Shown here: positions 3,968 through 10,717 of the stretch, piece by piece
Position numbering within the stretch: the first letter of the stretch is position 1
Layout: each line of letters starts with the position of its first letter
Origin: Candidatus Fermentibacterota bacterium
Lineage (GTDB): Bacteria > JAFGKV01
NCBI GenBank assembly: GCA_030620115.1
Contig: JAUXFG010000130.1
Coordinates: forward strand, 1 to 10,807
Direction: 5' to 3'
Length of the DNA stretch: 10,807 bases
Made by a program: the position numbers and the translations under genes
The notes under the pieces: generated by a model
What the model saw: only the letters and a program-made list of their open reading frames with translations
Database searches by the model: none
What the model was told of the DNA's origin: nothing

Positions 3968-4021
3968 CTCCGCCCACCAACCGACGCATATCATTCTGAG
4001 GGAGGGGGTTGGGGAGAGGAT

Positions 4022-4083
4022 AGCGTTCAGCGTTCAGATGGGGGAAGAGGAAGAGAGCGTTCAGCGTGCAGCGTCCAGATGAC
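4022..4083 (+). repeat. GTTCAG-type heptad tracts, copy 1
   Basis: Tandem heptads of the form GTTCAGC occur at 4022-4040 (gcgttcagcgttcagatg) and again, more decayed, at about 4053-4083 (gcgttcagcgtgcagcgtc). A purine-rich spacer separates them. The same heptads recur at 5258-5275, 5420-5440 and 10377-10471, always next to other palindromic repeats, so this looks like one component of a dispersed composite element. Confidence 0.7.
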
Positions 4084-4101
4084 AGAATGGGGAGCAAGGC
4101 G

Positions 4102-4201
4102 AGATTCTTCGCTCCTTGCAGTCGCTCAGAATGACAGGGTTCCAGGCAGACGCATGTGACGCTCCGTGTCATTCTGAGGGAGCCACGCGACCGAAGAATC
4201 T
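4102..4201. repeat. 100-base dispersed inverted repeat, copy A
   Basis: The left arm (4102-4136) and right arm (4167-4201), 35 bases each, are imperfect inverted copies. The outer ten bases (AGATTCTTCG against its complement) and inner twelve (CTCAGAATGACA against TGTCATTCTGAG) match, while the middles have diverged. The 30-base centre contains TTCCAGGCAGA. Copy B at 5293-5393 has the same arms, the same centre core and nearly the same length. From memory, sequences resembling TGTCATTCTGAG...GAAGAATCT recur in many environmental bacterial genomes. No coding capacity is evident and the function is unknown. Confidence 0.85.
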
Positions 4202-4245
4202 GGGCGGAGGATGGGGGGATGTACGCCGAACATCCAACATTCATT

Positions 4246-4348
4246 ATTCAACGTCGAAGTGAGGATGATGGAGGGCCATGCTCCGTCATGGCAGTTGATG
4301 GCACCGATCCATGCGGACGCGATCCGCCGGCTGTCGGACGTCCCTCCA
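4246..4348. repeat. Foldback repeat unit A with 47-base identical lead
   Basis: Bases 4246-4292 are identical to 5502-5548 (47 of 47 by eye). Within this, TGGAGGG at 4269-4275 pairs with CCCTCCA at 4342-4348 to close an 80-base foldback. Two inner hairpins are visible: GCCATG (4275-4280) with CATGGC (4287-4292), and GCGGA (4313-4317) with TCCGC (4323-4327). The result is a three-way-junction or cruciform-like structure. Confidence 0.8.
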
Positions 4349-4374
4349 CCGGATAAGACGTTCACATCCCTCGC

Positions 4375-4437
4375 TGGAGGGCCATGCTTTGTCATGGCCG
4401 TTGATGGCGTAAATATATCCGGACGCGATCCGCCAGC
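4375..4437. repeat. Foldback repeat unit C, truncated at the deoD stop
   Basis: This is a third unit: TGGAGGG at 4375-4381, hairpin GGCCATG (4380-4386) with CATGGCC (4393-4399) around a six-base loop, and CGGACGCGATCCG at 4420-4432, as in unit A. The closing CCCTCCA arm is missing; the sequence runs straight into the deoD stop codon at 4438-4440. The repeat therefore either inserted right against the gene end or lost its right arm there. Confidence 0.7.
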
Positions 4438-5139
4438 TCAACTCACCGCCGCCAGTGCGATCTCTACCATCTGGGTAAAGGTGGTCTGTCGATCTTCCGG
4501 CGGTACTGCTTCACCCCTGACGATATCGTCGCTGACGGTGAGGATCGAGAGTGCCTGGGCGCCGGATTTGGCGGCTAGCGTATAGAGTGCCGCAGTTTCC
4601 ATTTCGATGGCCAATACCCCGTATCCGGCCCAGAGCTTCCAGAAGTCAGGGTTCTCGTAGTAGAAGCAATCGCTGGTGAGGATGGAGCCTACCTTGATCT
4701 CTATGCCACGCTGTCTTGCTGCATCATGGGCCTTTTTCAAGAGGTCGTGGTCTGCAGTGGGTGCGTATGCCATGCCGTTGAAGTGTATCTTATTCAGGCT
4801 GGAATCCGAAGACGCGGACATGGCAAGAATGATGTCTTTTAGCCGTATTCCCTCTTGGATTGAGCCGCAACTACCGATTCTTATGAGACGTTTGACGCCG
4901 TAGCTCGAGATGAGCTCATGCACATAGATCGATATCGACGGAATACCCATGCCGGTTCCCTGTATGGAGATTCGCTCTCCATTGTAAGTTCCGGTGAAGC
5001 CATACATGCCCCGGATTTCATTGTAACACACCGCATCTTCTAGCATGTTTTCTGCGATGAAACGGGCACGGAGCGGGTCGCCCGGCAGCAGAACCGTACC
5101 GGCAATAGCTCCACTTTCCGCGGCGATATGTAGGCTCAT
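4438..5139 (-). CDS. deoD: Purine nucleoside phosphorylase, DeoD type
   Basis: A 233-residue cytosolic enzyme that splits purine (deoxy)ribonucleosides with phosphate to give the free base and (deoxy)ribose-1-phosphate, in purine salvage and nucleoside catabolism. It aligns almost without gaps to the hexameric E. coli enzyme and keeps its numbering: His4 (contributed to the neighbouring subunit's site), phosphate-binding Gly20, Arg24, Arg43 and Arg87, Ser90, ribose-binding EME at 179-181, and the catalytic pair Asp204 (TVSDD) and Arg217 (RQTTF). The C-terminus is a few residues shorter than in E. coli, ending at IALAAVS, exactly where a truncated repeat begins. The ATG at 5137-5139 has a strong ribosome site (AGGAAGGA). 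No other nucleoside gene is adjacent, so it is probably transcribed alone. Substrate range (adenosine as well as inosine/guanosine) is inferred from the family. Confidence 0.97.
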
Positions 5140-5146
5140 CGAACAT

Positions 5147-5154
5147 TCCTTCCT
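5147..5154 (-). promoter_or_regulatory. Ribosome binding site of deoD
   Basis: On the minus strand AGGAAGGA lies seven bases before the ATG at 5139. It fixes the start codon and predicts efficient translation. Confidence 0.85.
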
Positions 5155-5178
5155 ATCGAGAAGTCACCAACTGAACAA

Positions 5179-5213
5179 TGACGCGAAGCTACGCCTTCGA
5201 TCTCGCTTCGTCA
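5179..5213 (-). promoter_or_regulatory. Imperfect inverted repeat in the deoD leader
   Basis: Bases 5179-5189 (TGACGCGAAGC) are the complement of 5205-5213 apart from a two-base bulge, giving nine pairs around a 15-base loop, about 40 bases before the deoD start. It could be an operator for a regulator or a leader hairpin; nothing in the sequence decides between these. I could not identify a convincing -35/-10 pair for deoD nearby. Confidence 0.3.
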
Positions 5214-5255
5214 CCATGAAAATTGTGGGAGAAGCGAAATGCCTGGAGGCAGAAG

Positions 5256-5278
5256 AGAGCGTTCAGCGTTCAGATGAG
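5256..5278 (+). repeat. GTTCAG-type heptad tract, copy 2
   Basis: It reads GAGAGCGTTCAGCGTTCAG then ATGA, closely matching 4051-4083 in sequence and in position relative to the inverted repeat that follows. Confidence 0.7.
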
Positions 5279-5292
5279 GAAGGATGCAGGAG

Positions 5293-5393
5293 AGATTTGA
5301 CGCTTCTTTCAGTCGCTCAGAATGACAGGGATTCCAGGCAGAGATATGGATCGCAGTGTGTCATTCTGAGGGAGCGGAGCGACTGAAGAATCT
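5293..5393. repeat. 101-base dispersed inverted repeat, copy B
   Basis: The arms 5293-5327 and 5359-5393 (35 bases each) flank a 31-base centre containing TTCCAGGCAGA. The arm and centre layout is the same as copy A at 4102-4201. The right arms of A and B agree better than the left arms, and the left arm here has drifted near its outer end (AGATTTGACG). Both copies are in the same orientation, on opposite sides of deoD. Confidence 0.85.
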
Positions 5394-5419
5394 GGGAAGG
5401 GGGAGAGGGGGCAAAGACT

Positions 5420-5440
5420 GTTCAGCGTTCAGCGTTCAGA
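5420..5440 (+). repeat. GTTCAG-type heptad tract, copy 3
   Basis: Three perfect tandem heptads (GTTCAGC, GTTCAGC, GTTCAGA), followed by TGACGG. This is the cleanest tract in the left part of the window. Tandem heptads can change copy number by slippage. Confidence 0.75.
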
Positions 5441-5501
5441 TGACGGAGGAAGGAAGAGGGAGGGATTTCGAAATGCTTGATTGCTGGAATGGGAAATGAA
5501 C

Positions 5502-5592
5502 ATTCAACGTCGAAGTGAGGATGATGGAGGGCCATGCTCCGTCATGGCCGTTGATGATCGATACGACGGACGCGACGGAGCGCGTCCCTCCA
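5502..5592. repeat. Foldback repeat unit B with 47-base identical lead
   Basis: The lead (5502-5548) is identical to 4246-4292. TGGAGGG at 5525-5531 pairs with CCCTCCA at 5586-5592, closing a 68-base foldback. Inside are two perfect seven-pair hairpins: GGCCATG (5530-5536) with CATGGCC (5543-5549), and GGACGCG (5568-5574) with CGCGTCC (5581-5587), each around a six-base loop. This is the best-preserved of the three units. Confidence 0.82.
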
Positions 5593-10376: not shown

Positions 10377-10471
10377 ATTCAGTGTTCAGTGTTCAGATTT
10401 CAGGAGGGATCAGCGGCCATGGACCAGGCTCTTTCCTGAACCCCCGAACCCTGAACACTGAACCCCTGAAC
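10377..10471. repeat. GTTCAG heptad tract with an inverted partner tract
   Basis: Four tandem heptads (ATTCAGT, GTTCAGT, GTTCAGA, TTTCAGG; 10377-10404) are followed by complementary heptads at 10435-10471. GTTCAGTGTTCAG at 10384-10396 is a perfect 13-base inverted match to 10451-10463. Transcribed from either strand it would form a long hairpin. The heptad is of the same kind as the tracts near 4022, 5258 and 5420. Confidence 0.8.
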
Positions 10472-10542
10472 GGTTACCCCATCTGGAATCAGCGAAGCGT
10501 CAAGTAGCCTCTCAATGAGTCCGTGCATCCGACCTCCTCCCC

Positions 10543-10717
10543 CTTTGGAGTGCGGTAGCCATGCTACCGCTTTTCCCGAGCAAGCCATGCTTGCGTAGGC
10601 CGTTGCTCATCGAACAGTCTGCAATGAGCGCGGGAGCATGGCTCCCGCAGAATAAGGCGCAAGCATGGATTGCGCACTCCAAAGCTTCCATAATCAATCC
10701 CGCGCAGTACGCGGGAT
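10543..10717. repeat. Composite palindromic array of short hairpins, several tipped by CATG
   Basis: An outer perfect 12-base inverted repeat (CTTTGGAGTGCG at 10543-10554; complement at 10673-10684) encloses a series of hairpins. These are GCGGTAGC/GCTACCGC (10552-10570, loop CAT), CAAGC/GCTTG (10581-10593, loop CAT), GCTCAT/ATGAGC (10605-10629), GCGGGAGC/GCTCCCGC (10630-10648, loop ATG) and GCGCAA/TTGCGC (10657-10675). A further perfect eight-pair hairpin follows outside (10697-10717, loop CAGTA). There is no transposase and no CRISPR-like regular spacing. Confidence 0.82.

Follow-up and report, generated by a model that had tools for sequence, protein, structure and literature searches.

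Scattered hairpin-repeat copies, probably REP-like composites, flank deoD in a Candidatus Fermentibacterota genome

Cyanobacterial STRRs are intergenic tandem repeats built on a heptameric unit. Heptameric intergenic repeats have also been described with the unit GGGNATC in Xanthomonas and Nostoc (PMC4692102), and with the unit TAACTGA in Beggiatoaceae (PMC4679880). Among the short hairpin repeats of bacteria, the CGTC-tagged REPs (Di Nocera et al. 2013, PMC3733652) have a stem of 8-9 bp with A-T as its first two pairs, a loop of 4-5 nt and a short tail that is mostly CCA, and the unpaired tag at one end, which is CGTC, TGTC or CCTC, often reads TGTC. They occur mostly as head-to-head dimers, often heterodimers, and the superfamily takes in the dRS3 repeats of Neisseria (PMC3733652). 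No dedicated transposase is associated with them, and their manner of spread is therefore an acknowledged open question (PMC3733652).

We have analyzed a stretch of 10,807 nucleotides (the window) from a Candidatus Fermentibacterota bacterium, which is one contig (C247) of a 296-contig, 4.10-Mb genome that is 98% complete. In the window there are an ABC-2 transporter operon and genes for a deoD-type purine nucleoside phosphorylase (PF01048), for a PAS/GAF hybrid histidine kinase and for an extracellular solute-binding protein, and clusters of repeats lie on both sides of deoD. These clusters are two of several hundred scattered copies of a hairpin repeat and form no special cassette. We regard it as likely that they are dispersed REP-like composite repeats.

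Repeat clusters on both sides of deoD

The deoD gene (positions 4438-5139, minus strand; PF01048, E 3.6e-45) is intact, encodes 233 amino acids and is single copy, being its own sole match within the genome. The family comparison comprised two genomes (G001 and G002), neither of them from the same genus. In both, deoD has different neighbors and the repeats are absent from the DNA examined.

A preliminary description of this stretch reported a heptad tract, an inverted repeat of ~100 bp and an identical 47-base segment on each side of deoD, with the parts ordered and oriented alike, and this was confirmed by TRF and by repeat comparison. All parts are on the plus strand. A truncated right half of the inverted repeat, here called P, lies outermost at 3989-4006 (a third P half, found as a match to TCATTCTGAGGGAG in the direct-repeat table and the pattern scan). 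It is followed by the outer GTTCAGC heptad tract of copy 1 at 4022-4037 and by a degenerate heptad tract at 4056-4078 (both period 7 in TRF) that runs straight into P copy 1 at 4086-4204 (nhmmer match to 3-122 of 123). This P copy consists of a purine-rich linker and two TGTC-tagged halves set head to head, with arms at about 4102-4136 and 4167-4201. Heptads of AACATC/AACATT type (GAACATCCAACATTCA), read directly from the sequence at about 4228-4251, enter the 47-base segment at 4246-4292, which makes up the leader and the left part of a foldback, F, of the form TGGAGGG...CCCTCCA (4268-4350, F core pattern). Copy 1 carries a second F, truncated and ending at the deoD stop codon (4374-4437; direct repeat D2, pattern match at 4376).

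On the other side of the gene, a GTTCAGC tract at 5258-5273 (TRF period 7) is followed by P copy 2 at 5277-5396 (nhmmer 3-122 of 123), with arms at 5293-5327 and 5359-5393 and a decayed outer left arm. A further GTTCAGC tract, present in copy 2 only, lies between P and the 47-base segment at 5420-5439 (TRF period 7); copy 1 has a different heptad unit in this place. The segment itself is at 5502-5548 (direct-repeat comparison) and the foldback F at 5524-5592. The two 47-base segments match exactly, extending to 55 nt at 98%, and the right halves of the foldbacks are unlike between the copies. When folded as DNA, the two inverted repeats were more stable than their shuffled versions (0/200 shuffles equally stable for both), with z scores of -3.9 for copy 1 and -4.2 for copy 2; as RNA the values were -4.4 and -2.2. 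F copy 2 folded with z -3.8 as DNA and -5.9 as RNA, and F copy 1 did not exceed shuffled sequence in stability (z -0.7).

Two other structures were observed in the window. A heptad-flanked inverted repeat at 10378-10476 (TTCAGTGTTCAG ... CTGAACACTGAAC) has a GATCAGCGGCCATGGACCAGG core and similar copies elsewhere in the genome, for example at L018 and L026. A foldback at 10547-10690, closed by GGAGTGCG/CGCACTCC and containing several short hairpins with CATG centers, appears to represent another repeat family with the build of F.

Copies, occurrence and strand of P

The consensus from the alignment of the P family runs from heptads through a purine-rich linker, a left half, a variable spacer of ~30 nt and a right half to a G-rich tail. 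Each consensus half is ~35 nt long, with a 5-bp closing stem and an interior of ~19 nt, and reads TGTC-ATTCT...AGAAT-CT, the right half being followed by CTGGG. With its tags pointing inwards, P is a head-to-head heterodimer of TGTC-tagged hairpin halves, that is, it has the architecture of a REP dimer (BIME-like).

The right half of P was used to scan the 4.1-Mb genome, allowing up to 3 mismatches and with the reversed pattern as control. There were 238 matches in the genome and none in the reversed-pattern controls, and under the same mismatch limit none in either same-family genome. A pattern scan gave 116 copies of the F core, and with up to 3 mismatches allowed the 47-mer had 29 copies, of which 6 are exact. 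With 238 P halves and 29 copies of the 47-mer, neither the palindrome nor the 47-mer is peculiar to deoD. Neighborhoods were studied in a sample of 1.0 Mb, chosen in part from contigs with hits, and then in 0.9 Mb more, to give 1.9 Mb. Full pairs in one arrangement were formed by 76 of the 129 P matches, and 33/129 had their midpoint inside crude ORF calls, which are probably over-called. Some copies are in tandem at a spacing of 120-170 bp (contigs C208, C9 and C53, for example). In the first, 1-Mb sample, 17 of the 76 pairs of neighboring P enclosed 0.6-3 kb, 15 of the 17 in direct orientation, and the suggestion that the arrangement is something particular to deoD has accordingly been dropped. 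Where copies number in the hundreds, genes bracketed by repeats are to be expected, and such brackets call for caution. Recombination between the two copies could, in principle, delete deoD.

The exact 38-nt right half of P was found in two Chloroflexota MAGs, and one copy there has a left half of the same type, placed head to head across a 6-nt spacer and lacking heptads. A shorter form of the half, TGTCATTCTGAGCGAAGCGAAGAATCT, was present in 43 of 290 sampled genomes from many families, with up to 133 copies; it contains GCGAAGC, which we take to be an unusually stable DNA mini-hairpin. The arms of P are nearly invariant within the genome, and covariation there is therefore uninformative. 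Among 64 distinct strings of TGTCATTCTGAGCGAAGCGAAGAATCT type, pairing-preserving two-sided changes were counted at six of seven pairs, a covariation that is supportive only, the strings having been chosen by a mismatch limit and left uncorrected for kinship. Searches of Rfam (even at E 1) and of plasmids gave no match, and the pattern of heptads plus P had 0 matches in named genomes. Half repeats of P type were also seen in four putative viral IMG/VR contigs (L229-L232), and these could be host contamination or phage-carried repeats.

In the first sample, the orientation of P was coherent within contigs and followed the GC skew of gene bases (rho 0.59), and the plus strand of P was on the G-rich strand of the contig's genes in 79 of 105 cases. 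The polarity prediction was recorded before further sequence was tested. The second sample alone gave rho 0.26-0.32, which is not significant; the second and third samples pooled as held-out data gave rho 0.40 (p=0.012), with 39/59 on the G-rich strand (p=0.018). The held-out data exhibited no polarity signal at third codon positions (rho 0.16, p=0.33), and their polarity is confounded by gene-strand bias (rho 0.36). The bias of P to the G-rich strand is thus suggestive and partly replicated.

Such a bias, along with the strong conservation of the arms, is what speaks for reading the P copies as polar sites under selection, either replication-oriented or acting as hairpins at 3' ends of mRNA, with their copy number maintained by selection. 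We nevertheless consider this improbable, given the result of the second sample taken alone, the silent third codon positions, the confounding by gene strand, and the fact that P does not clearly favor the ends of convergent genes. Most likely P has no function (a selfish repeat), or forms incidental structure at mRNA 3' ends.

Order of the parts and spread of the repeats

Heptads were found upstream of P and on the same strand in 54/69 full copies of the first sample, never in the opposite orientation, and in 76/95 of the full copies that could be tested when the sample had grown to 1.9 Mb. The last heptad stood 23 nt from the palindrome in 46 copies, 16 nt from it in 11 copies and 22 nt in 3, and the two common spacing classes (23 and 16 nt) differ by one heptad. 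The fixed upstream side, strand and spacing identify heptads plus P as a true composite. The argument that the parts are more than independent palindromes therefore holds, as the succession from heptad tract to inverted repeat is a fixed and oriented one throughout the genome. Heptad tracts without P also occur (53/99, some of them cut by contig ends).

The foldback F behaves otherwise. It was within 250 bp of P in 18/39 cases, against 2.5 expected under uniform placement, a difference whose significance is overstated because F and P are both largely extragenic, and over 1.9 Mb 59 of 83 F had no P within 250 bp. Where an F with the 47-mer leader adjoins P, it is on the strand of P in 13/13 cases, with P upstream in 8 and downstream in 5. 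F is thus loosely attached to P and most often alone. Of the module proposed in the preliminary description, the heptads and P remain, and F, which stands on either side or by itself, drops out; occurrence singly and in random order is not what was found for heptads and P, and largely is what was found for F. The idea of one three-part unit is not supported.

These observations bear on the possibility that heptads, P and F make up one non-autonomous, MITE-like element moved in trans by a transposase. The fixed order and spacing of heptads and P would fit such an element, as would the constant strand of adjacent F with the leader, but the solitary F and its occurrence on both sides of P do not, nor does the P core without heptads in the Chloroflexota MAG or the presence of heptads without P in G001. 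Furthermore, no associated transposase was found at the Y1_Tnp loci, and we judge this element to be very unlikely. The genome has four Y1_Tnp genes, and no P half was present in their flanks of ~1.5 kb. Mobilization of P by a RAYT was rejected, there being no P at these four loci. A hairpin of GTAG type, starting GTAGGTCGGGTTAGC, flanks one Y1_Tnp gene, and over 48 genomes the presence of Y1_Tnp did not separate those with many halves from those without. At L075 (G000:C200, about 12.8-13.1 kb), a GTAGGTCGGGTTAGCGCAGCGTAACCCGAC hairpin was seen on both sides of a Y1_Tnp gene, as would be expected for a REP/RAYT unit.

A segmental duplication of one intergenic block to either side of deoD, which had also been proposed, is largely refuted and most improbable. 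It would explain the common order and orientation and the near identity over 47-55 nt, but the 47-mer is close to the genome-wide family consensus, and the direct-repeat comparison of the window detected no shared repeat in the spacers between the parts. Identity between the two P copies is 76.7%, against a mean of 76.2% over all pairs in the genome, and they rank only 26 and 11 in each other's similarity lists among 69 copies. As the window pair is thus no more alike than random pairs from the genome, duplication does not account for it. An artefact of assembly or binning that joined unrelated repeats is hardly credible, for although many P copies are at contig ends, where repeats break assemblies, the composite of heptads and P recurs with unchanged spacing inside dozens of contigs.

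Seven-nucleotide repetition was also observed more widely. The intergenic DNA of the genome sample has a strong 7-nt and a weaker 8-nt periodicity, which is missing from coding DNA, and recurrence of a 6-mer at distance 7 amounts to 53.5 per 10,000 positions in intergenic DNA versus 4.7 in coding DNA. The heptad units vary (GTTCAGC, GTTCAGG, AACATCG, AATCTGG and GGGGATT types), with AACATC-type units among the commonest. Another hairpin family, CTGATGGCGCCGCGCCATCAGGTTTTT ... AGTACA/TGTACT, was seen at L011 (15680-15908) and L012 (about 1098-1163); GTTCAGG heptads precede it, and P comes next in L011.

For the dispersed REP-like composites, a tentative candidate mechanism is the spread of P as a non-autonomous element of hairpin type, through either an enzyme acting in trans or the copying of single-stranded hairpins in association with replication. 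The heptad tracts may have changed length by slippage, and together with the purine-rich linker they may have served as recombination joints by which P, F and other hairpins were strung into polar chains and tandem copies; both steps are suggested by the tandem copies and the variable numbers of heptads. That a heptad tract held in a fixed 7-nt register with a cross-phylum TGTC dimer, and oriented by replication strand, would imply spread through single strands at the fork with no known transposase involved is a further proposition, which we think unlikely. A slippage-prone leader of heptads, a fixed register, a possible polarity and a core found in two phyla offer handles on how repeats of CGTC type spread.

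Comparison with known repeat systems

P resembles the GTAG-REP/RAYT systems (REPINs, BIMEs) in being a short palindrome in inverted pairs with hundreds of copies, and differs from them in its tag, which is TGTC and not GTAG, and in having no adjoining RAYT gene. With MITEs it shares a non-coding, repeated nature and terminal complementarity; unlike them, it is a candidate element with neither an identified transposase nor a demonstrated target-site duplication.

The likeness to the CGTC-tagged REPs takes in an unpaired TGTC tag on both halves, the tags facing each other, A-T as the first two stem pairs (ATTCT...AGAAT in both halves), a predominance of head-to-head heterodimers with a spacer, a high copy number, and the lack of a flanking transposase at the Y1_Tnp loci examined. 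In contrast, P has a 5-bp closing stem with an interior of ~19 nt instead of an 8-9-bp stem with a 4-5-nt loop, its tail is CTGGG and not CCA, and it is welded to a heptad tract upstream. Because its stem, loop and tail depart from theirs, P is, judged by sequence, a putative variant outside families CGTC-1 to CGTC-4.

The heptads, like the GGGNATC, TAACTGA and STRR repeats, are tandem units of 7 nt that cluster in intergenic DNA. Unlike those repeats, they comprise several units in one genome, and one of the units stands at a fixed register before a hairpin.
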